DNA from: Curtobacterium sp. MCJR17_055
GTDB taxonomy: Bacteria; Actinomycetota; Actinomycetes; Actinomycetales; Microbacteriaceae
Direction of reading: 5' to 3'
NCBI RefSeq assembly: GCF_003224335.1
Contig: NZ_QKLF01000005.1
Coordinates: 310,001 to 374,000, forward strand
DNA: 64,000 nt
This document shows, one piece after another, positions 1,882 through 64,000 of the stretch. The number at the start of each line of letters is the position of its first letter. Within the stretch, counting starts at the first letter, position 1. Position numbers and translations under genes: made by a program. Below the pieces are notes generated by a model. It was not told the origin of the DNA, ran no database searches, and was given only the letters and a program-made list of their open reading frames with translations.

Positions 1882-3369
1882 ATGAACGAGACCCCGACCC
1901 CAGCCGCGGACGATGCCGGACAGCAGCAGGCACCGGCGTGGGAGCCGCCGCACGCGGACCCGTCGACGCTCCGCGCAGCGCACGCCTTCGACGGCTCGGG
2001 TCCGTACCTCTTCGCCCCCGACGGGTCCGGTCCGTACGCCTACTCCCCGGACGGTCGCGGTCCGTACCGCGTCGGGAGCGCAGCGCTCGGGGCCACCTCG
2101 GCGCCGCAGGGTTGGACGGGCGCCCCCGGGGCCGCTCCGGGGACCACGGGTCGTCGTCGCCGTGTCGGGCTCGCGATCGGGTCGGGCATCGCCGCACTCG
2201 CGATCGTGGGCGCCGCCGGCGGGACGGCGCTCGGCCTGTCGTCGCACGGCACGACGGCCACCTCGAGCCGGTCACAGGGCACGACGACCGTCCCCGGTCC
2301 CGGATCCGCGGGCAGCGGCATCGACGGCTTCACCGTCCCCGGCCAGGACCAGGGCGGGACGGACGGCCTGTCGGACGGCGGCACGGGTACCGACGGCGGC
2401 ACGGGCACCGGCGGCACGGGAGCCGGCGGCAGTGGGACCTCGCAGGCGGCAGCCACACCCGCGACCGCCGCGCAGACCGCGGGCGTCGTGACGATCGACA
2501 CCGTGATCGGCTACGACGACGCGCAGCAGGCCGCCGGGACCGGCATGGTCCTCACCGCGGACGGGACCGTCCTGACGAACAACCACGTGGTCCAGGGCGC
2601 GACCTCGATCACGGTGACCGACGAGACGACCGGGGAGCAGTACACCGCTGACGTCGTGGGCACCGACGCGACGAACGACGTCGCGGTGCTGCAGCTGCGG
2701 GACGCGTCCGGCCTGTCCACCGTCGCGCTCGACGACGACGGCGTCCAGACCGGCGACACCGTGACCGACGTCGGCAACGCCGAGGGCACGGGTGACCTGG
2801 TCGCCGCCGAGGGCACCGTGACCGCGACCGACCAGGACATCCAGGTGCAGAGCGAGTCCGGTACCGGGACCGAGTCCCTGACCGGGCTCATCGAGGTCGC
2901 GGCGCAGATCGTGTCCGGTGACTCCGGCGGTCCCGTCCTGGACAGCGAGGGCGAGGTCATCGGCATGGCGACCGCCGCGTCCTCGGGTTCGGCGGACGTC
3001 ACCGGCTACGCGATCCCGATCAGCACCGCGAAGTCGATCGCCGCGCACATCCTGGCGGGCGAGGCCTCGGACACCATCACGATCGGGCTGCCGGCGTTCC
3101 TGGGCGTGCAGGTCAGCAGCGCGGCGACCGGGACCACCTCCGGTGTGCCCGTCGCCGGGACGGTCGAGGGATCGGGGGCAGCGGCCGCCGGGCTCGCCGC
3201 CGGCGACACGATCACGAGCATCGACGGCACCGCGGTCACGAGCGCATCCGAGCTGACGGAGGCGGTCGCTCGGCACGCGGTCGGCGACCGGGTCACGGTC
3301 GGCTACACGACGGCCGACGGCACCGCGGCCACGGCGACCGTCACCCTGACCGCCGGCCCGGCCGCCTGA
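1882..3369 (+). CDS. Membrane-anchored HtrA/DegP-type serine protease with PDZ domain
   Basis: 495-residue trypsin-like protease for extracytoplasmic quality control. Residues 1-90 are a proline/glycine-rich cytoplasmic tail with three DGxGPY repeats (about residues 37-62). A single membrane segment lies near 95-118 after an RRRR stop-transfer motif. A Gly/Thr-rich linker (125-195) leads to the protease domain with the triad His235 (LTNNHVV), Asp266 (TNDVAVL) and Ser348 (GDSGGPV). A C-terminal PDZ domain spans about 405-485. The start ATG follows a GGAGAG ribosome site ten bases upstream. Topology puts the protease and PDZ domain outside the membrane. Substrates unknown. Confidence 0.92.
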   Translation: MNETPTPAADDAGQQQAPAWEPPHADPSTLRAAHAFDGSGPYLFAPDGSGPYAYSPDGRGPYRVGSAALGATSAPQGWTGAPGAAPGTTGRRRRVGLAIGSGIAALAIVGAAGGTALGLSSHGTTATSSRSQGTTTVPGPGSAGSGIDGFTVPGQDQGGTDGLSDGGTGTDGGTGTGGTGAGGSGTSQAAATPATAAQTAGVVTIDTVIGYDDAQQAAGTGMVLTADGTVLTNNHVVQGATSITVTDETTGEQYTADVVGTDATNDVAVLQLRDASGLSTVALDDDGVQTGDTVTDVGNAEGTGDLVAAEGTVTATDQDIQVQSESGTGTESLTGLIEVAAQIVSGDSGGPVLDSEGEVIGMATAASSGSADVTGYAIPISTAKSIAAHILAGEASDTITIGLPAFLGVQVSSAATGTTSGVPVAGTVEGSGAAAAGLAAGDTITSIDGTAVTSASELTEAVARHAVGDRVTVGYTTADGTAATATVTLTAGPAA

Positions 3370-51286: not shown

Positions 51287-51409
51287 GGTTCCTTGCTACG
51301 CCCGCGGCCGACGGCCGGACCCAGGTGTGCGGAGCGGCGAGCCGGGAGGTGTCGGGGGCTTCCGCCAAGATCGACGAGTCCCACGAGCACCACCAGGAGC
51401 ACCACGCAC

Positions 51410-52252
51410 ATGACGTCCCGCCGACGCCGCACCCGCACCACCGTCCAGTCCTCGATCGTCACCCTCGTCGTCGCCCTCGGCGTCTGGGCGCTCCTCTCGT
51501 CGGGAGTCCTCGCAAGCGGTACCGACGCCGCCGCAGGCGGGCCGACGAGCACCGGCACCCGGACCGGCACCGGCGCCGAACCGACCATCACGACGACGGC
51601 GCGTCCGACCGCGCCCGGAGCGACCACCTCGGCACCGGCGGCCGCTCCGACGGAAGTGAGCCGACCCTCCAGTCCGGCCAGCGGCGACGCCGGGAGCACC
51701 GAGGCTGCTGCCGCCCGTGCGACCCTCGCCACCCTCGTCGTGAAGGGGAAGGCACCTGCGACGGGCTACGACCGCGAGGCGGACTTCGGCACAGCCTGGC
51801 TCGACGTCGACCACAACGGCTGCGACACCCGCAACGACGTCCTGGCCCGCGACCTGACGGACATCGTCCGGCAGGGGCCGTGCAAGGTCATGTCGGGGAA
51901 CCTCGTCTCCCCCTACACCGGCGGCGAGGTCGCGTTCGTGCGGGGCAACACGACCTCGACCCTCGTGCAGATCGATCACGTCGTCGCCCTCGAGAACGCA
52001 TGGCGGACGGGCGCGCAGCGGCTCACGCAGGACGAGCGCGAGGCGCTGGCGAACGACCCGGAGAACCTGTTCGCCGTCGACGGGCACTCCAACTCGCAGA
52101 AGCGCTCGTCGGACGCCGCGACCTGGCTGCCCGCGGCGAAGGGGTTCCGCTGCGAGTACGTCGAGCACCAGATCGCGGTGAAGGCGGAGTACCGCCTCTG
52201 GGTCGTGCCGGCCGAGCGTGACGCGATGGAGCGGGTGCTCAGCGCCTGCTGA
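51410..52252 (+). CDS. Membrane-tethered or secreted HNH-family nuclease (DUF1524-like)
   Basis: 280 residues. Basic tail RRRRTRT, one hydrophobic segment (about 14-36), a Thr/Ala/Pro linker to about 105, then a nuclease domain: DYDREADF-like GYDREADFGTAWLDVDHNG, VSPYTGGEV, LVQIDHVVALENAWRTGA with the catalytic-position His (near 189), and NDPENLFAVDGHSNSQKRSSDAATWLP. This is the HNH/DUF1524 family of exported actinobacterial nucleases. AGGAG upstream of ATG 51410, somewhat distant. Role may be in nutrient DNA breakdown or competition. Confidence 0.88.
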   Translation: MTSRRRRTRTTVQSSIVTLVVALGVWALLSSGVLASGTDAAAGGPTSTGTRTGTGAEPTITTTARPTAPGATTSAPAAAPTEVSRPSSPASGDAGSTEAAAARATLATLVVKGKAPATGYDREADFGTAWLDVDHNGCDTRNDVLARDLTDIVRQGPCKVMSGNLVSPYTGGEVAFVRGNTTSTLVQIDHVVALENAWRTGAQRLTQDEREALANDPENLFAVDGHSNSQKRSSDAATWLPAAKGFRCEYVEHQIAVKAEYRLWVVPAERDAMERVLSAC

Positions 52253-55158: not shown

Positions 55159-58100
55159 TCAGCCCCGCGGCGCCACCAGCTCGATGAACCGCGACAGTAG
55201 CGCCAGCCCCGGGATCGACGGCGGCAGCGCCGTCGTCAGCGCCGGCGAGTGCACGAGGTACGCCGCCCACTTGGCCCGCGACAGCGCCACGTTGAGCCGG
55301 TTCGGCATGAGCAGGAAGTCGAGCCCGCGCGGGATGTCCGCTGCCGAGGACGCGGCCAGCGAGGTGATCGAGACCACCGCCTCCCGGCCCTGGAACAGGT
55401 CCACAGTCCCGACCTGCGTCCCGCTGAAGCCCGCACGGTCGAGCGCGTCCCGGATGACCGCACCCTGCGCGTTGTAGGGCGCGACGACGATCACGTCCTC
55501 GTCGGTGAGCGCGCGCGTGCCTCGGTCGTCCGTCCAGGTCCGCCCGACGACGTCCGCCACGAGGGTGACGACCCGAGCCGCTTCCTCCGGTGACGAGGTC
55601 GTGTTCCCCGCGTGCACGACGGGGACGGGATGCACGCCGGCCGCGACGCCGTCCAGGTGCCGCCCGGAAACCATCGACGCGAGCTGCCCGTCGTAGGACA
55701 GCCCCGACACCGCCGCGGTCAGGGCGGGTTCCATCCGCCGGGTCTGCGCGAGGAAGTACCCGAACTCCGGCGGGAGCACGTGCTCCCCGTCCGCCAACCA
55801 GCCGAGCGCGGACTCGTCCACGGGCTCGGGGTGCGAGCCCTGCGACACCTGGGGCAACTGCTGCGGATCGCCGAGCAGCAGCAGACGAGTGGCAGCGATC
55901 GCGGAGGCGATGGTCGGTGCGAGCGAGAACTGCCCGGCCTCGTCGACGACGAGCAGGTCCAGGGAGCGCCGGCCGATGGTCGCGTCGTTCGCGAAGGTCC
56001 ACGCCGTCCCGCCGACGACTCCCCCGGTACCGGTGTCGGCGCAGGACTGCAGGAACGCCGCGATCGCCGCACCGTTCTTCACTGGCGTCCACGCCGCCGC
56101 CTCGATCTCCTCGGCGTCGGCACCGCTCTTCGGCTGCTTCACGACCCGCTCCGCCGGCACACCCGCGGCGATGACGGCGTCGAGGAAGTTCTCGCTCGTC
56201 GCGTGCGACTGCCCGACGACGCCGACCCGCCACCCGTGCTCGCGCACGAGCGTCGCGACGACGTTCGACCCGACGTACGTCTTACCCGTGCCGGGAGGCC
56301 CCTGGATCGCCAGGTACGACCGGTCCAGTCCGAGCAGGGTCGCCACCACGGCACCCACCGTGTCGTCGCCGACGACCGGCTCGAGGGTTCCGCGCGGCGG
56401 CACCCGCCGGAGGAGGTCGAGCGCCGGGTCGGGCAGCATCTCCGGGAGGGCATCGAGCACCTCGGCGCCCCACTCCGCGATCGCGTCGGGCTGCGGCTTC
56501 GCCCGGGGTGGCGACGAGGGCGCGAGCGCGACCGGGAAGTCCGCGTGCGGTTCTCCCCCGCCGACCGGCATGCGTTCGAGGAGCAGCACCTCGGTGGCGT
56601 CGCCGTTGTCCCACACCTCCAGGATCGAGGCGCGGTCCGTCGCACCCTTCGGACCGGGCCCCGGGGCGGTGATCGACGCCGGGAGTGGGTCGTCGTAGAC
56701 GAGGTGGGGCGAGCCTCCCGGCCGGAGCCGCGAGCCGGGCGCGAGCGTCCCCGACAACCGGATCTCTCGTGACAGCGAGCGGGCGCGCGGCAGCGTCGCC
56801 CAGTCCCGCTCGACGGAGGCGCGCTCGACGACCAGGACGTCCCGCGTGTCGGCCCACTCGTCGACGGGGTTGCGGAGCCGGTCGAAGTGGTCCTGCCAGA
56901 AGGTCTTCGCCTCGCGGCGGTGGTAGTCGATCGCCGCCGCGGCGAGCGCCAACGCGGTCTGGTCGGGCGTGCGGTCGAGGGCGTCGACGTCGCCGAGGTA
57001 CTCGGTGAGCGCGACGGTCACCGGGTTCGGCTCGCGCTCGACCGGGATGGGCGGCAGCCCTTCGAGCTCGGTCGTTGTGGTGGCGTCCGGCGCGTGTTCG
57101 GCGCGGAGGCCGAGCAGCCAGTCGCGGAGGCGCAGTGTCGACCGGCAGTCGTAGGCGTTGTAGTCGGCGACCTGGTCGAGCTGCCGCTGCCCCTCGGCGG
57201 GGTCGCCGCTGCGGAGCTCCTCGATCGCGTCGACGTAGGCAGTGATGCTGTCGGCCGCGTTCGTCACGTCGCTCAGTCGCAGGTCGTCGCCCATGTACAG
57301 CGGCTCGAGCTTCTTGATCGAGTAGCTGCGGCTGCCGACCACCAGGGCCTTCCGCACGATCGGGTACAGGTCGACCAAGACACCGGCGCGCAGCAGGTCG
57401 TCCACCGCGTCCTCCCCCACCCCGTGGCGGGCGGCGAGGGACAGCAGGTGCGTCCGCTCGTATGCGGCGTAGTGGTAGATGTGCATGTCCGGGTACCGCT
57501 CGCGGCGCTCGGCGATGAACGCGAGGAAGTCCAGCAGCGCCTGGCGCTCGTCGCGGATGGTGTGCGCCCAGAATGCGCGGAAGTCGGCCTGGTCATCGAC
57601 GAGGCCGAACAGGTAGTCGAGGCCCCAGTGCACGCCGTCCTCGGTGTGGAGCGGGTCGCCCTCGAAGTCGAAGAAGACGTCGCCAGGATCGGGTGCCGGG
57701 ATCGCGTCGAGTGCCCGTGCATCCAGGACGTCGAAGGCTGGACCGCGGTTCGGGCTGGCAGCGTCGCTGCGGTTGGCTGCGCGCTCCGTCTCGATCTGGA
57801 GGCTCGCCTGCCGCACCAGACGATCCAGCGTCGTCTTCGACATGGTCGCCACCGGCGCGGTCCGGACCGCCAGGTCGTCGATCGACCGGACGCCCTGCCG
57901 GATCAGCTTCGTCCGCTGGTCGAGGCGCATGCCGGCGACGAGGACCAGGTCGCGGTGTCGCTGCACCTCCTGCTGGCAAGCAGAGCACCGGCCGCAGCTG
58001 GAGTAGCGCGGGTCCCCCCACTGCATCGGTTCGTCGGCAGCCAAGCGCTCGGCGATCACCCGGATCAGCTCGGCCCGCTGCGTGCGGTACACCGGGACGA

Positions 58101-58656
58101 TGTCGGCCAGGTCGTGTGTGGTCGTCGTGCGGTCGCCGAGGACCAGGTGCACCTGCTGCCCGGTCGGGATGTCGTTCGCCCGCATCTGCTCGGCGTAGGC
58201 CGCGAGCTGCAGCAGGGCGCTGATCTTGGCGTGGCGGGCGAGCTTGGTGTCGTAGACCTCGTACTCGCCGCGGGCATTGCGGATGATGAAGTCCGCGAAG
58301 CCGATGAAGCCTGTGCCGTCTGTGGACGCCGGGACGTGGAACGTCGGTTGGAAGAGGACGTCCGCGCCGTCCCGCATCGCGTTCCGCGCTCGTTCGGCGG
58401 CTTCGGCGTACTGCGGCGGGGCCGGGCGGTCGAACTCCACCACGTCGTGGGTCTGCTTCAGGATCTCGAGGTAGTCGAGCTCGTGCTGGTCCCCCAGGCG
58501 GGCCGTTCGGTCGAGCATGTCGTCGTGCTCGTCCGGCAGGGGCTCCCCGCGGCCGAGCTTGACGTCGAGGCGGCGGAGGAACGCCCACTCGCAGGATGCC
58601 CACGTGCTGAGGTCGCTCGGGCTGAGCAAGACCTGGCCGTCGGTGGTGATCTGCAT
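55159..58656 (-). CDS. TM0106-family RecB-like nuclease fused to superfamily I helicase
   Basis: 1165 residues. The N-terminal part is RecB-like PD-(D/E)xK: GFADFIIRNARGEYEVYDTK (near 118-138) holds the Asp, Glu and Lys. CGRCSACQQEV near 218-228 may be part of a metal site. A DEDD exonuclease-like region starts at VFFDFEGDP (near 325). The helicase: IQGPPGTGKTYVGSN near 784, VVDEAGQFSLAPTIA near 900, LLGDPQQLPQVSQG, then VAPYNAQGAVIRDAL and TVDLFQGREAVV. A DNA/RNA end-processing role is likely. GGGGAA before the ATG. Divergent from the candidate defence island. Confidence 0.92.
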   Translation of the reverse strand: MQITTDGQVLLSPSDLSTWASCEWAFLRRLDVKLGRGEPLPDEHDDMLDRTARLGDQHELDYLEILKQTHDVVEFDRPAPPQYAEAAERARNAMRDGADVLFQPTFHVPASTDGTGFIGFADFIIRNARGEYEVYDTKLARHAKISALLQLAAYAEQMRANDIPTGQQVHLVLGDRTTTTHDLADIVPVYRTQRAELIRVIAERLAADEPMQWGDPRYSSCGRCSACQQEVQRHRDLVLVAGMRLDQRTKLIRQGVRSIDDLAVRTAPVATMSKTTLDRLVRQASLQIETERAANRSDAASPNRGPAFDVLDARALDAIPAPDPGDVFFDFEGDPLHTEDGVHWGLDYLFGLVDDQADFRAFWAHTIRDERQALLDFLAFIAERRERYPDMHIYHYAAYERTHLLSLAARHGVGEDAVDDLLRAGVLVDLYPIVRKALVVGSRSYSIKKLEPLYMGDDLRLSDVTNAADSITAYVDAIEELRSGDPAEGQRQLDQVADYNAYDCRSTLRLRDWLLGLRAEHAPDATTTTELEGLPPIPVEREPNPVTVALTEYLGDVDALDRTPDQTALALAAAAIDYHRREAKTFWQDHFDRLRNPVDEWADTRDVLVVERASVERDWATLPRARSLSREIRLSGTLAPGSRLRPGGSPHLVYDDPLPASITAPGPGPKGATDRASILEVWDNGDATEVLLLERMPVGGGEPHADFPVALAPSSPPRAKPQPDAIAEWGAEVLDALPEMLPDPALDLLRRVPPRGTLEPVVGDDTVGAVVATLLGLDRSYLAIQGPPGTGKTYVGSNVVATLVREHGWRVGVVGQSHATSENFLDAVIAAGVPAERVVKQPKSGADAEEIEAAAWTPVKNGAAIAAFLQSCADTGTGGVVGGTAWTFANDATIGRRSLDLLVVDEAGQFSLAPTIASAIAATRLLLLGDPQQLPQVSQGSHPEPVDESALGWLADGEHVLPPEFGYFLAQTRRMEPALTAAVSGLSYDGQLASMVSGRHLDGVAAGVHPVPVVHAGNTTSSPEEAARVVTLVADVVGRTWTDDRGTRALTDEDVIVVAPYNAQGAVIRDALDRAGFSGTQVGTVDLFQGREAVVSITSLAASSAADIPRGLDFLLMPNRLNVALSRAKWAAYLVHSPALTTALPPSIPGLALLSRFIELVAPRG

Positions 58657-58958
58657 GCGCTTCCCCGCCTCGTCTGGTGCGGGTCGAGCTTAGGGCCGCC
58701 CGCCGACAGCAGGAGGCCGCCGGGAAGCCTCAACCCGGACACCGTCACGTCGGATCGCCGCGGAAACGTTTCCTTGTGATGAGCTTGCAGGGTGTCGCGG
58801 AGAGCCGCAGCCGAGAACCAGTAGCCCGCCGTCACCAACCACTTCGTCGACAAGGGCATGAGCGTCGTCAACCTCGTCCGGGCGCCCGAAGGCTGCGAGA
58901 ATGCGTCAGTATTGGGCCACAGCATTCCTACTTCTTCCCGACGCAGCAGGAGCCATCA
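58657..58958. promoter_or_regulatory. Divergent intergenic region with a 12-bp perfect palindrome, island boundary
   Basis: 302 bp between the nuclease-helicase and the EcsC/TerB gene. GGAAACGTTTCC (58762-58773) is a perfect palindrome like LacI-family operators, although no LacI gene is in view. From here rightwards the sequence is visibly less GC-rich. No ORF with a start, ribosome site and coding-like composition is present; a fragmentary frame reading MPLSTKWLVTAGYWFSAAAL on the minus strand might be a gene scar but is unsupported. Confidence 0.5.
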
Positions 58959-60071
58959 ATGACCAAAGCCGATCCGTCCGACGCCACTGACGAAGAGCGT
59001 GCTGCAGTCGAGCGTGAGCGGGAGGAGCTGAAGGACTTCGTCAAGAGCCTCAGCGGGGAAGACCTGAGGAGTGGCAACTGGTTCTCGAAACTCCTCTCCA
59101 ACGCCCTCGGTACCTATGCCGAGAAGGTGGACGCCGCGTACTTCCAGGCGCGCTACAAGGGAGTTCCCGCGGACGCTGTGGTCGACCAGCGGATCAAGAT
59201 GGCCGCCCGCTACGCGGCCATCGAGGGTGGATTATCCGCGGGCGCTTACACGGCCGCGGTGGTGGCCACCCTCGGCTCTGCAGGAGGAGCATCCCCGCTC
59301 ACTCTTCCCGCCGCGGGCGTGACTCTGCTCGTCGACGTCGCGTACATCGCTCGCCTGCAGCTCCACCTCGCCTACGACATTGCCATCCTCTACCGCGTCC
59401 CGGTCGACGTGGAGGACCCCGATGACCTTTGGAAGCTGATCCGCGTCGCCTTCACCATCCGGAGCGCCCAGGCCGCGAGCGAGGGTGTAACCAAAGTGGT
59501 GCCGGCTCTCGTGCGACCGCTCGTGAAGACCTTCTACTCGCGGGGCGTGCTCAATGCAGCCAAGGGGCTCCCGGTCGTCGGTCGGTTCCTCTTGCAGCGG
59601 AACGTCATCAAGATCGGTATCCCGGTCGTGGGCGTACCGCTGTCGGTCGCTCTCAACTACTACTCGACGATCGTTGCAGGTCGTCACGCGAGGGCCGTCT
59701 TCCGCAACGACGCCCGAGTTCATGAGGTCGCAGGAGCCGCCGTCGAGAAGACGAGGCACCCGAGGTCGTTGCTCTGGGTCGCGTGGATGGTCGTGCTGGC
59801 CGACGGCAAGATCACCGACGACGAGGCACTCTTCATGCGGAGGCTGGTCGAGGAGCTCCACGACCAGCACGACCTGACTGACGAACAGTTCGCGAACAAG
59901 ATCGATCTCGACATCGACGACGTGTGGCGCCGACTCGATGGCGAAGACGACGACCTGGCGGACCTGATCGACGTTGCGATGAAGACAGCCGAGATCGACG
60001 GCTCGGTGCACAAGCTCGAGACTGCGATCATCGACGAGCTTCGGACCCGGTACTTCAACACGACCGCGTGA
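58959..60071 (+). CDS. EcsC-like membrane protein with C-terminal TerB-like domain
   Basis: 370 residues. A charged helix (10-40) leads to a largely hydrophobic alpha-helical region (60-245) with Gly/Ala-rich segments (AIEGGLSAGAYTAAVVATLG, LTLPAAGVTLLVDVAYIARL, IKIGIPVVGVPLSVALNYY), which resembles EcsC-family proteins. Residues 270-370 are TerB-like: ADGKITDDEALFM and AEIDGSVHKLE repeat the DGxxxxxE acidic motif of the metal-binding TerB fold. AGGAG eight bases upstream of the ATG. It precedes the helicase by 133 bp on the same strand and shares its lower GC content, so membership of the same island is likely but not proven. Confidence 0.72.
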   Translation: MTKADPSDATDEERAAVEREREELKDFVKSLSGEDLRSGNWFSKLLSNALGTYAEKVDAAYFQARYKGVPADAVVDQRIKMAARYAAIEGGLSAGAYTAAVVATLGSAGGASPLTLPAAGVTLLVDVAYIARLQLHLAYDIAILYRVPVDVEDPDDLWKLIRVAFTIRSAQAASEGVTKVVPALVRPLVKTFYSRGVLNAAKGLPVVGRFLLQRNVIKIGIPVVGVPLSVALNYYSTIVAGRHARAVFRNDARVHEVAGAAVEKTRHPRSLLWVAWMVVLADGKITDDEALFMRRLVEELHDQHDLTDEQFANKIDLDIDDVWRRLDGEDDDLADLIDVAMKTAEIDGSVHKLETAIIDELRTRYFNTTA

Positions 60072-60172
60072 AGGACAACGTCGAAGCGGCGGTCGGCAAG
60101 CTCGCCACGGCGGGCGAGCGCCAGCGGCGACATTAGGCTGAGACGAAGCGCAGCGGCGAGGGCTGGCTGCGC

Positions 60173-60193
60173 AGGGGTGAAACAGGGGTGAAA
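60173..60193 (+). repeat. Direct repeat before the helicase gene
   Basis: AGGGGTGAAA occurs at 60173-60182 and 60184-60193. The second copy overlaps the best purine-rich ribosome site of the helicase gene. TAGGCT at 60134-60139 could be a -10. The repeat may be a regulator site. Confidence 0.6.
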
Positions 60194-60204
60194 GGTAACA
60201 ACAC

Positions 60205-63177
60205 GTGTCGTTGATCGACGTCGATTCGTCAACCGTCGAAGGAGCATGGCCGAACGTCGCACCGGGGAGCGTCGTGCTCGTTCGTGACGCCGAGTGGCTC
60301 GTGCTCTCGACGGCACCGACCGGCTCCGGTCTCCTCGTTACCGTGCAGGGCCTGTCAGAACTCGTCCGGGACACCACCGCCACCTTCTACAGCGATCTCG
60401 ACGACATCGAGCCGCTTGACCCTGCGCAGGCGAAGGTCGAAGCAGACGGATCGTCCGGCTATCGCCGCGCAAAGCTCTGGCTCGAGGCGACTCTCCGCAA
60501 GACCCCGGTGCCGCTGCACGAGGACGCCCTGACCGTGAGCACTCAGATGCTCGCAGACCCGCTCGACTACCAGCGCGCCGCGGTGCGGAAGGCCCTCGAC
60601 CGCGACAACCTCCGTCCGCGCCTCCTGATCGCCGACGCTGTCGGGCTCGGCAAGACCGTCGAGATCGGGATGATCCTGTCCGAGCTCGTGCGTCGAGGCC
60701 GCGGCGAGCGCATCCTCATCGTGACGCCGAAGCACGTCCTCGAGCAGATGCAGCAGGAGATGTGGACGAAGTTCGCACTCCCCTTCGTCCGGCTCGACTC
60801 CCTCGGTATCCAGCGCGTGCGCCAGAAGCTGCCGGCGACCCGCAACCCGTTCAGCATGTACAAGCGGGCGATCATCTCGGTCGACACGTTGAAGCAGAGT
60901 CAGTACCGCATCCACCTCGAGAAGCAGCGCTGGGATGCGGTCGTCATCGACGAAGCGCACAACGTCATGAACAACACGACGTTGAACGGCGAGCTCGCGT
61001 CGCGTCTCGCCCCGCAGACCGATGCACTCATCCTCGCGTCTGCGACGCCGCACAACGGCAAGAAGGACTCGTTCGCACGGCTCGTGCGCTTGCTCGACCC
61101 GACCGCGGTGACCCCTGAGGGCGATCTGATCGAGGATGAGGTGAAGCGACTGATCATCCGCCGGCACCGGCACAGTCCTGCCGTCGCGATGGAGGTCGGT
61201 GCCGACTGGGCAGAACGGCAGGAGCCGAACAACGTCCTGGTCCCTGCATCTCCTGCCGAGGCGGCGATCGCCGAGGAGCTCTCCACGGTCTGGCTTCACC
61301 CGCAAGGCGGACGGTCGCCGTATTCCGGCGAGAACGCGTCGCTCTTCCCCTGGACCCTTGCGAAGGCGTTCCTGTCGTCGCCGAGCGCCCTCGACGAATC
61401 GGTGCGCGAGCGTCTGAAGCGGCTCCGGAAGGGCGATGCCGACAGCGATGTCCAGCGCGAGATCGACGCGCTGGAGCGACTCGAGCAGCTCACCGTCACC
61501 GCGCTGAGCTCGAGCTCCGGGAAGTACGACGCCCTCCTGCAGCACGCCAGGAGCATAGGTGTCGGCCCGAAGTCCGAGGAGCGCCTCGTGGTGTTCTCGG
61601 AGCGCGTTGCGACCCTGCACTGGCTGCGCCAGAAGCTCGCGAAGGACCTCAAGCTGTCGGACAAGCAGATCCGCGTGATGCACGGAGGTCTGACGGACCA
61701 GGAGCAGCAGGAGCTCGTGGACAGCTTCAAGCAATCCGCCTCCCCCATCCGCGTGCTGATCACCGGCGACGTCGCGAGCGAGGGAGTGAACCTCCACTCC
61801 CAGTGCCACGAACTCGTGCACTTCGACATCCCGTGGAGCCTCATCCGCATCGAGCAACGCAACGGCCGCATCGACCGGTACGGCCAGAAGCACTCCCCTC
61901 GCATCACGACCCTCCTGCTCGACGTCGACGACCACGAGTTCGCGGGCGACGTCCGCGTGCTCAGGAACCTCCTCGAGCGCGAGACCGAGGCGCACTCTGC
62001 GCTGGGTGACGTCGCGTCGCTGATGGGCGAGTACACCGCTGTCGCCGAGGAGTCAGCGATCCGCGACGTGCTCCTCCGCCAGCGCAGCTTCGACGACGCA
62101 GTCCCGACCGTCGAAGCAACCCTCGAGGACGGCGACGAGATCACGCGGCTCATGGCCGAACTCGCCGCCGAACAAGCGAGCGAGAGCGAGAACGACGCCA
62201 CACGGGCACCTGATGACACCCCGAAGAACGAAACCGCGAACCGTCAGCAGCGCGACAAGACTGACATCGGTACCGGCCTGTTCCCTGACCTCGTTTCGTT
62301 CCTCGACACAGCGCTGGCCGAACGCTTCACCACACCGACCGCCGACGTCGACCACGGCGGTGTCGCCTGGTCCCGCACCAACGCCATCGCGCAGATCGAA
62401 CCCACTGCCGATCTCCGACAGCGGCTCGAAGTCCTGCCGCAGTCGTACCTCCGCGACCGGCGCGTCACGGAGCGACTGCTCCTGGCGACCACTCCGATCC
62501 AGGGCAAGGCCGAGGTCGACAGCGCGATCAACAACAAATCGAGCCCGTCGACCTGGCCACACGCGCACTTCCTCGGACCGCTGCACCCCGTCCTCGACTG
62601 GGCTGCGGACAGCGCTCTCTCCCGACTCGGACGAAACCGCGTGTTCGCCGTCCGTGGCGCCGTCGACCACCCCGTCGTCGTCGTCCACGCCACCCTGACG
62701 AACCGCGCCGGCCAGGTCGTCGCCGGGTCGTTCCTGACCGTCGACTTCCCTGGCGTCGCGGAGCACTCGTTCCACTTCACCCAGTCGCACGCGGACGCAC
62801 GCGCCGCTCTGGCCCACGTCGGGTTCACCTCCGAGGTGAAGACGAACCCAGGAGCGGTCGATGCGGCGCCGCTGCAGGACCTGATCCCGACTGCAGTCGA
62901 CGCCGCCCGCAACCAAGCGGTTCAGCAGATGGAGGCCACGGCAGACGACATTCGCCGCCGCGTGCACCAGTGGGCCGCGCGGATCGATGACTGGCAGGGC
63001 GCAGCGGCCGAACAGACCCAACTGCGCGGGCTCCGAGAACACCGCGACCGCGTGGACGACGAATCAAAGCTCGTGGAGCGCATGACGCCCAACCAGCACT
63101 TCGTGCGTCCCCTGCTCGTCGTCGCCCCTGCGGACAGCCCCACTGCCCCCGAAGAACACCCTGGAAGCGAGCACTGA
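60205..63177 (+). CDS. SNF2-type DEAH helicase, DrmD-like (DISARM-like system)
   Basis: 990 residues. N-terminal domain about 1-110 starts GSVVLVRDAEWLVLSTAP. Walker A is VGLGKTVE with GKT at 149-151; the DEAH box is VVIDEAHN at about 247-253; LASATPHNGKKDSF is motif III. The second lobe has LVVFSERVATLHWLRQKL, MHGGLTDQEQQE, GDVASEGVNLHSQC and RNGRIDRYGQ (near 522-560). The C-terminal 350 residues are specific to this family. Size, architecture and the directly following methylase-like gene match DrmD of class 1 DISARM. GTG start; a downstream in-frame start cannot be excluded. Assignment to DISARM is inference. Confidence 0.75.
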   Translation: MSLIDVDSSTVEGAWPNVAPGSVVLVRDAEWLVLSTAPTGSGLLVTVQGLSELVRDTTATFYSDLDDIEPLDPAQAKVEADGSSGYRRAKLWLEATLRKTPVPLHEDALTVSTQMLADPLDYQRAAVRKALDRDNLRPRLLIADAVGLGKTVEIGMILSELVRRGRGERILIVTPKHVLEQMQQEMWTKFALPFVRLDSLGIQRVRQKLPATRNPFSMYKRAIISVDTLKQSQYRIHLEKQRWDAVVIDEAHNVMNNTTLNGELASRLAPQTDALILASATPHNGKKDSFARLVRLLDPTAVTPEGDLIEDEVKRLIIRRHRHSPAVAMEVGADWAERQEPNNVLVPASPAEAAIAEELSTVWLHPQGGRSPYSGENASLFPWTLAKAFLSSPSALDESVRERLKRLRKGDADSDVQREIDALERLEQLTVTALSSSSGKYDALLQHARSIGVGPKSEERLVVFSERVATLHWLRQKLAKDLKLSDKQIRVMHGGLTDQEQQELVDSFKQSASPIRVLITGDVASEGVNLHSQCHELVHFDIPWSLIRIEQRNGRIDRYGQKHSPRITTLLLDVDDHEFAGDVRVLRNLLERETEAHSALGDVASLMGEYTAVAEESAIRDVLLRQRSFDDAVPTVEATLEDGDEITRLMAELAAEQASESENDATRAPDDTPKNETANRQQRDKTDIGTGLFPDLVSFLDTALAERFTTPTADVDHGGVAWSRTNAIAQIEPTADLRQRLEVLPQSYLRDRRVTERLLLATTPIQGKAEVDSAINNKSSPSTWPHAHFLGPLHPVLDWAADSALSRLGRNRVFAVRGAVDHPVVVVHATLTNRAGQVVAGSFLTVDFPGVAEHSFHFTQSHADARAALAHVGFTSEVKTNPGAVDAAPLQDLIPTAVDAARNQAVQQMEATADDIRRRVHQWAARIDDWQGAAAEQTQLRGLREHRDRVDDESKLVERMTPNQHFVRPLLVVAPADSPTAPEEHPGSEH

Positions 63178-63180
63178 CGC

Positions 63181-64000
63181 GTGGGAACCCTGACCTCGGA
63201 AGCGATCGTCGTCGGCGAAGACTGGATCAGCGAGCACTACCTCACCACCGACGCGAAGTCGCAGTCCTTCCAGAGCCGGGTGCTCGAGCGCCGGGCAGCC
63301 TGGGACGCCGACGATGCGGAGGGCTGCGCGTCGACGCGCTCTCGCTTCAGCGCGAAGCGCGCCGAGCTGATGGACTTCCTCGCCACCGTTAACCCGGACG
63401 GCGTCGATGACGCTGCTGACGGCCAGGAGGCTCTGCACGCCCTGTCGACGCACCTGCGGTCCGTCCTCGGGTACGCCCAGGGCGTCTTCCACATCGATGA
63501 AGCAGGTCCGGTCCGACACGTGGCCATTCACGGGCTCGAAGACGCGGCGCCGCTGGCGCTCATCGACGCCAAGCCGGTCGCACAACTCGAGGACGTGCTT
63601 GCCAAAGACGGCGACACGCTGCTGTCCGCTTGGACGCCGGACGTCGACGACCCCAAGCCGCTGACCTCGGTCGTCCGGGCGCTTTCGGTCGTGTTCGAGG
63701 GGACCGCGAAGTTCGCACTCGTCTTCGCAGGCCGCTGGCTCCTGGTGGCCGAACGCGACCGGTGGTACGAGGGTCGCTACCTCGCGCTCGACGTGCAGCT
63801 CGCGTGCGAGCGGAACGACACCAAGCGAGGCGGCGAGATCGATCGCGTCCTGACATGTGTGGAAGCTGCCTCACTCGCCCCCGACAGTGACGGCGACGTG
63901 TGGTGGACCTCGACGCTCGAAGACGCGGTCAAGCACACCGTCGGTGTCTCCGAGGACCTGCGTGAGGGTGTCCGCGAGTCGATCGAGATCATCGCGAACG
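63181..64000 (+). CDS. N-terminal part of a large protein, DISARM/type IIG-like methylase candidate, runs off the window
   Basis: Starts with a GTG three bases after the helicase stop and stays open for 273 codons to the edge. It begins MGTLTSEAIVVGEDWISEHY and continues TTDAKSQSFQSRVLERR; later come LIDAKPVAQLEDVL, KFALVFAGRWLLVAERDRW and GEIDRVL, which resemble the N-terminal non-catalytic region of DrmMI/PglX/type IIG methylases. The SAM-binding and NPPY motifs expected downstream are outside the window, so enzymatic identity is not shown. Operonic with the helicase. Lower GC than the core genome. Confidence 0.5.
   Translation, partial: MGTLTSEAIVVGEDWISEHYLTTDAKSQSFQSRVLERRAAWDADDAEGCASTRSRFSAKRAELMDFLATVNPDGVDDAADGQEALHALSTHLRSVLGYAQGVFHIDEAGPVRHVAIHGLEDAAPLALIDAKPVAQLEDVLAKDGDTLLSAWTPDVDDPKPLTSVVRALSVVFEGTAKFALVFAGRWLLVAERDRWYEGRYLALDVQLACERNDTKRGGEIDRVLTCVEAASLAPDSDGDVWWTSTLEDAVKHTVGVSEDLREGVRESIEIIAN

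Follow-up and report, generated by a model that had tools for sequence, protein, structure and literature searches.

The window analysed here, that is the whole 64,000-nucleotide stretch of Curtobacterium sp. MCJR17_055 and part of a 406-kb contig, ends within a locus that we assign, with a probability of about 0.9, to the ARMADA type II anti-phage systems (armA-armB-armC-armD), located in a defence hotspot of genus level that also holds a PDDEXK_4 nuclease gene, McrBC and further genes of defence type. The assignment is made because gene content and order past the window equal the published order, and because the eight residues mutated in the published work are conserved. As judged from sequence, the core locus is a further member of an already published system. 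The EcsC/TerB-family gene standing upstream of it is, on the comparisons reported below, an accessory that arrived separately, and not a core part.

ARMADA type II was recently described as a four-gene defence system related to DISARM (Bell et al. 2025, bioRxiv preprint, PMC12458937). According to the main text of that paper, its genes follow a strict order, ArmA (BrxHII/RapA-like), ArmB (PglX-like, with an NPPW motif), ArmC (YprA-like, nearest to Druantia) and ArmD (GajB-like); in Escherichia coli all four genes are required and protection is non-abortive. The features published there include a Vsr-type nuclease at the C-terminus of ArmC and a RelE-like N-terminus of ArmD. The core genes of the present locus are listed below, with coordinates of the window or, past its end, of stretch L006, whose positions 3183-3187 are window 60182-60186.

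60205..63177, plus strand: armA, a BrxHII/DrmD-like SNF2 helicase of 990 amino acids, with Walker A K150 and DEAH D249
63181..64000, plus strand: N-terminal part of armB, after a gap of three bases behind armA, open to the window end
L006 6182-10849: complete armB, 1555 amino acids, with NPPW N947, running 3,848 bases beyond the window
L006 10846-17250: armC, 2134 amino acids, beyond the window
L006 17174-19483: armD, 769 amino acids as called, with a provisional start, beyond the window

The gene caller used relies on guanine-plus-cytosine (GC) content by codon position; it fails on low-GC genomes (G059), and sometimes calls starts too early.

The order read, SNF2 helicase, methyltransferase, YprA-like helicase, GajB-like helicase, is that of ARMADA type II. 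ArmA has DrmD as its top PADLOC model (1.3e-88, 296 bits). ArmB matches Eco57I in Pfam (9.5e-13) and carries the NPPW motif at residue 947; in PADLOC it reaches 1449 bits with the type IIG model versus 181 bits with DrmMI (5.4e-54). These matches agree with the initial annotation, which had taken the partial gene three bases after the SNF2 gene for a methylase, and the two genes for homologs of drmD and drmMI. The third protein is a YprA homolog with DEAD and Helicase_C domains and a fused MZB domain of the DUF1998 type (2.9e-10, residues 1597-1686); it is Druantia-like, DruE being its best PADLOC model (2.5e-83), far over DrmA (1.2e-18). The fourth is a UvrD helicase with GajB-like matches.

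E. coli proteins for comparison were taken from a chromosome which carries, beside fim, zorA2, a DruH/DruE-like pair (as read from the annotation) and SNF2, methyltransferase, DEAD and UvrD genes, and which matches the published Zorya-Druantia-ARMADA array at that place. The residues mutated in E. coli, ArmA K136 and D236, ArmB G605 and N971, ArmC K110 and D234, ArmD K266 and D454 (main text of PMC12458937), were found at these very numbers in the proteins chosen. All eight are kept in the alignment with the Curtobacterium proteins, as ArmA K150 and D249, ArmB G570 and N947, ArmC K113 and D237, and ArmD K323 and D528.

Alignment of ArmB with its homologs in four close relatives gave 84-99% identity per 100-residue block over the first 900 residues. 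In relative G317, the last 600 residues fall to 35-66% per block, the first 900 being at 84-98%, and ArmA, ArmC and ArmD stay at 71-99%. The lowest C-terminal block is at 47% in G331 and at 55% in G313. Such an exchange of the C-terminus is, we infer, what would be expected of a sequence-specific methylase marking self DNA. In the working that we propose, ArmB, a methyltransferase of the N6-adenine type, would use the recognition region at its C-terminus to choose the site at which the cell's own DNA is marked. Incoming DNA without the mark would then be acted on by ArmA (SNF2 translocase), ArmC (YprA-type helicase) and ArmD (UvrD helicase), and would be destroyed or stalled, the cell not being killed. 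This is the most likely working, its three inferred elements being a self mark made by methylation, a C-terminus that recognises the site, and an attack on DNA. As a clear case of ARMADA type II, the Curtobacterium locus retains the catalytic residues of the published system, and its ArmB exchange fits methylation-based self marking.

Several observations weigh against this picture. Identity to the experimentally tested E. coli system is only 32-36% (35.6, 34.5, 32.1 and 34.6% for ArmA, ArmB, ArmC and ArmD). No Vsr nuclease was matched at the C-terminus of ArmC in a Pfam search up to E 0.1, and no RelE-like domain at the N-terminus of ArmD up to E 0.05; the alignment of ArmD with its E. coli counterpart extends to residue 38 on the N-terminal side. 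Finally, the ArmB C-terminus of G353 changed less (73-95% per block), and the exchange is not found in every relative.

The surroundings of the core genes are organised as follows.

55159..58656, minus strand: boundary gene, 1165 amino acids, with PD-(D/E)XK, RNase H-like and helicase domains (Pfam); core gene at the left hotspot edge, outside the system
58959..60071, plus strand: EcsC/TerB-family gene, 370 amino acids, predicted all-helical; optional accessory, outside the conserved block
60182..60204, plus strand: left end of the shared ARMADA DNA block, 19-23 nt 5′ of the armA start, including the likely ribosome-binding site
L006 about 19323 to L007 678 (about 76322-77677 in the window frame): PDDEXK_4 nuclease-family gene, provisional start, directly 3′ of armD
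L007 679-4183, minus strand: McrC and McrB homologs, adjoining the ARMADA block, with neighbours that vary in relatives

The last 5.3 kb of the window hold three genes in one direction (EcsC/TerB-like, SNF2 helicase, start of the methylase), and GC content between 58 and 64 kb is 0.65-0.68 versus 0.70-0.77 in most of the window, some other stretches being also low (0.68-0.69). The gene at 55159-58656 was present in all 60 Curtobacterium genomes searched, and the DNA past it varies among the relatives read; the boundary is therefore real. The initial annotation had described three codirectional genes of lower GC past a clear boundary, which the open reading frames, the GC values and the boundary gene bear out, and had placed there the left end of a defence island, as is confirmed by armB-armC-armD, PDDEXK_4 and McrBC beyond the window. 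Homology in blastn begins at window 60182-60186 in G353, G317, G313 and G331; for the less closely related G345 and G304 it begins within armA.

A search for ArmC gave 10 positive genomes out of 299 in the host family and 7 out of 66 in Curtobacterium; both counts include the window's own genome. In every one of the seven Curtobacterium loci, armA-B-C-D stand in order beside the 55159-58656 gene, and the hotspot is one and the same. The family sample has nine further ARMADA genomes, from other genera, and in seven of them armA, armB and armD flank in order; one of the remaining two loci is cut at a contig start, and the other was unreadable by the gene caller. The PDDEXK_4 gene follows armD in four of the seven Curtobacterium loci, being 76-81% identical and at the same position in G317, G353 and G313, and was not seen after armD in G331, G345 and G304; it is possibly an extra, ARMADA-associated nuclease in Curtobacterium. 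McrBC lies nearby in five of the seven loci; G303, in which ArmC had no match, has it as well.

Two relatives, G331 and G345, carry a Druantia-like pair immediately 5′ of armA, an arrangement reminiscent of the Druantia III - ARMADA II arrays of E. coli. The pair of G345 (L100 6299-14598) is made of a gene of about 1,150 amino acids and a DruE-like gene; the first gene had no PADLOC match, DruH models included, and the label Druantia III-like is based for G345 on DruE and gene order, and for the G331 pair on similarity to G345 and ArmC only. The hotspots of G331 and G351 hold, behind the common gene family f48, one more gene of the SNF2 type, at 28-29% identity to ArmA; it possibly belongs to a further defence system of the hotspot. 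G351 additionally has an EcsC/TerB gene about 13 kb from it.

The EcsC/TerB gene of the window likely starts at 58959, a position backed by close relatives and by AGGAG right before the ATG. Its product matches TerB in Pfam slightly over the cut-off (8.5e-6) and gave no match to EcsC. Of 12 family members that were aligned, 10 show TerB and 5 show EcsC when matches up to E 1 are admitted (best EcsC 1.1e-4), and both domains are present on the family level. The label EcsC/TerB given at first stands for the family and, for the window protein, in its TerB half. The same annotation had called it a membrane protein, a label that is at most tentative: its best 19-residue hydropathy window is at 1.6, a borderline value reached by 66 of 87 family members. 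The structure model has a mean predicted local distance difference test (pLDDT) score of 74.7, and Foldseek gave no match to it in the PDB below E 0.001. Among leading titles of the literature, no paper connects EcsC/TerB with ARMADA or DISARM, those on EcsC alone using ECSC in other senses.

This gene is far from constant at ARMADA loci. It was found in 7 of the 299 family genomes and together with ArmC only in the window's genome, the gene being absent from the other nine family genomes with ARMADA. Four of the 66 Curtobacterium genomes carry it, all in the same hotspot and two of them without ARMADA; co-occurrence in this genus is 2/66 (P 0.05), and the gene is missing from five of the seven ARMADA genomes. 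In G353 it lies downstream of ARMADA, past McrBC. Two copies on Streptomyces plasmids lack any Arm homolog within 16 kb, and no EcsC/TerB gene is listed beside three plasmid ARMADA loci. A fixed part of ARMADA was rejected on the grounds that the gene is missing in most ARMADA genomes and that the shared block begins about 20 nt before armA. The plasmid copies had led to the view of a mere stand-alone gene, which was dropped after the following scan.

A family pattern was searched in one genome per species (84,980 species) and hits were checked with a family alignment, which confirmed 99 relatives; the best 80 loci, 41-82% identical, were kept, and counts cover flanks of up to 10 kb on each side. 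An ARMADA-, Druantia- or DISARM-like gene was near EcsC/TerB in 17 of the 80 loci, ten of them with a match of at least 500 bits, and the other 63 had none in their flanks. SNF2 and/or methylase genes of the ARMADA/DISARM kind were present in 12 of the 80 versus 0 of 20 control windows, a small set placed by hand in Streptomyces genomes carrying ArmC elsewhere, for which the 12/80 rate predicts 3. In locus L141 (Micromonospora gifhornensis), the gene stands about 250 bp 5′ of drmD, drmMI and drmA, genuine DISARM genes; this is the arrangement that the initial annotation had guessed, and the one such case observed. Two Actinomadura loci, L169 and L182, have it directly 3′ of the methylase. Elsewhere in actinobacteria it neighbours type I restriction-modification, type IIG and Vsr genes, as seen in a survey of 108 neighbouring genes, which covered 61 of the 63 loci that have no Arm or Dru match (two loci had no clean gene call, and one neighbour was omitted). 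The protein there is of the same family, and most such loci have no ARMADA-, DISARM- or Druantia-like gene in their flanks.

Two Streptomyces loci were observed with EcsC/TerB at the end of a gene run. L131 holds a third SNF2-methylase type, in which the SNF2 gene is DpdE-like and the methylase DrmMI-like. L138 holds a related methylase, whose SNF2 part lies outside the stretch of DNA read, and then a Gabija-type GajA gene.

A quick tree of 87 EcsC/TerB proteins, with branch support from the Shimodaira-Hasegawa-like approximate likelihood ratio test (SH-aLRT) only, was labelled for ARMADA linkage, which was taken to mean ten loci plus G000 and G353, seven weaker ones being counted apart. The label changes 11 times, at least 7 of these changes being forced by well supported branches; the link therefore arose or disappeared several times over. 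The label is spread across the tree to about the degree seen in shuffles.

In a sample of 382 Streptomyces genomes, the EcsC/TerB gene was present in 24 and the ArmC N-terminus in 67; 8 genomes have both, versus 4.2 expected (P 0.04). Four pairs are at most 13 kb apart, versus about 0.014 expected by chance, this limit having been chosen after the distances were seen. The sample was centred on G368, which itself has a linked pair; excluding it, three same-contig pairs are left (G359, G360 and G605). Of the four remaining genomes that have both, G371 has armA-B on the EcsC/TerB contig (L162), both genes are at contig ends in G722, and they are unlinked in G709 and G746.

A place where the two meet is a pocket between armB and armC. 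The EcsC/TerB gene sits there, on either strand, in seven loci, L113, L122, L143, L145, L159 and L207 of Streptomyces, and L169 of Actinomadura. Twenty Streptomyces ARMADA loci, two of them picked because they carry EcsC/TerB, were then considered as far as the ArmC start. The genes armA-B-C are joined in 5, and in L216 the end of armB coincides with the ArmC start that the search reported; an insert separates armB and armC in 12 (L208, L209, L211-L215, L217, L222 and L223 among them), one locus ran into a contig edge, and in another no armA or armB was within reach. Ten of the 12 inserts contain a minus-strand pair, made of an XRE/DUF5753-type gene and a small gene which we take to be DUF397-like, and the other two show one member. 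The pair comes mostly first after armB (behind two other genes in L215 and L223), and variable cargo then follows. Such an insert departs from the strict gene order given in the main text of the ARMADA paper (PMC12458937).

How should this recurrence be explained? It is fairly probable that EcsC/TerB is an ordinary hotspot passenger, its ARMADA linkage coming merely from islands that collect defence genes: all four Curtobacterium copies are in a single hotspot, half of them without ARMADA, and in Streptomyces the gene is one of several cargoes of the armB-armC pocket. This explanation has to face the proximity seen in Streptomyces, which is far over random placement, and the presence of the gene beside ARMADA, DISARM and the third SNF2-methyltransferase type.

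That EcsC/TerB works as a genuine partner of the SNF2-methylase module in ARMADA, DISARM and related systems, for instance as a membrane sensor or a helper, is a possibility to which we give limited credit. The 12 loci with SNF2 and/or methyltransferase genes within 10 kb, the many gains or losses of the link in the tree, the four close Streptomyces pairs, and the positions directly before drmD or after the methyltransferase speak for it. Against it stand the absence of the gene from most ARMADA loci, the three plasmid ones included, its varying position and strand, the 63 loci without such genes and the restriction-modification, type IIG and Vsr neighbours. Moreover the excess of shared genomes is mild in both Streptomyces and Curtobacterium, the tree label is clustered no more than in shuffles, and control windows were few.

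Taking these data together, we read EcsC/TerB as a recurrent mobile accessory of SNF2-methylase systems, nearer to them than chance placement allows, and it may be an add-on, sensor or helper, to ARMADA. The suggestion made initially, of an additional component, holds insofar as the gene recurs beside such genes, and fails insofar as it is not a standing part of the system, as the nine family genomes and five of the seven Curtobacterium ones without it indicate. The data point to EcsC/TerB as an accessory family that recurs beside these systems in several actinobacterial families, and of which the main text of the ARMADA paper makes no mention, with 0 occurrences of EcsC or TerB (PMC12458937). 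More speculatively, EcsC-TerB proteins might be an optional, repeatedly recruited component of Actinomycetota SNF2-methyltransferase modules (ARMADA II, DISARM class 1 and the third, DpdE/DrmMI-like type), coupling them to the membrane, an idea that we consider rather doubtful. If true, they would sense phage entry, for instance, or anchor the complex at the injection site.

Other features of the region are mentioned for completeness. A candidate two-gene defence pair, PDC-M09A/PDC-M09B, was observed at L007 3997-6634, with PADLOC matches that are near full-length. A large protein encoded at L007 10900-17646 combines Swt1-like HEPN, DUF4011 and helicase domains with an MTES_1575 nuclease domain. 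Additional defence-type genes continue rightward up to a PolIII-epsilon-like gene (a label from sequence only), of which five of the relatives read (G317, G334, G323, G318 and G305) have a homolog on the opposite side of the hotspot. Within the window, the protein encoded at about 51400-52252 is presumably an HNH/DUF1524-type nuclease. A scan for sigma-70 promoters found none, and a terminator scan found one site, equal to shuffles.

Class 1 DISARM, which had been proposed for the locus initially, has the gene order drmD-drmMI-drmA-drmB-drmC. This proposal is very improbable, in spite of the DrmD and DrmMI matches of the first two genes: the methyltransferase is much closer to type IIG, the third protein is closer to DruE than to DrmA and has the MZB domain fused, and the genuine DISARM of L141 scores 1423 bits for DrmD and 1695 bits for DrmMI with the same library, versus 296 and 181 here. 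Extension to the right, where drmA, drmB and drmC had been anticipated, met armC and armD instead, in the ARMADA II order. DISARM class 1 was rejected, the drmA and drmB parts being fused in one 2134-residue protein, and drmC not being found; Pfam, applied to the nine genes that come next behind armC, showed neither a separate DUF1998 protein nor a PLD nuclease (DrmC), and DrmC was not sought elsewhere in the genome.

Compared with known systems, the locus resembles class 1 DISARM in its first two genes, a DrmD-like SNF2 helicase and a DrmMI-like methylase, two genes which ARMADA has in common with class I DISARM according to the main text of PMC12458937. It differs in its third gene, nearer to Druantia DruE, and in that separate DrmA and DrmB and the PLD nuclease DrmC were not found; DrmA, DrmB and DrmC are typical DISARM parts according to PMC9142583. 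Druantia type III is approached through the similarity of ArmC to DruE, but the present locus adds SNF2 and methylase partners and a UvrD helicase, and no DruH-like gene was recognised. With ARMADA type II, as the main text of its paper presents it, the locus shares the same four genes in the same order, a PglX/YeeA-like methyltransferase with NPPW, and a Druantia-like helicase with a fused DUF1998-type domain. It differs from it by the additional EcsC/TerB gene upstream and PDDEXK_4 gene downstream, and by showing no Druantia III or Zorya II genes directly beside it, whereas two of its relatives do carry a Druantia-like pair.

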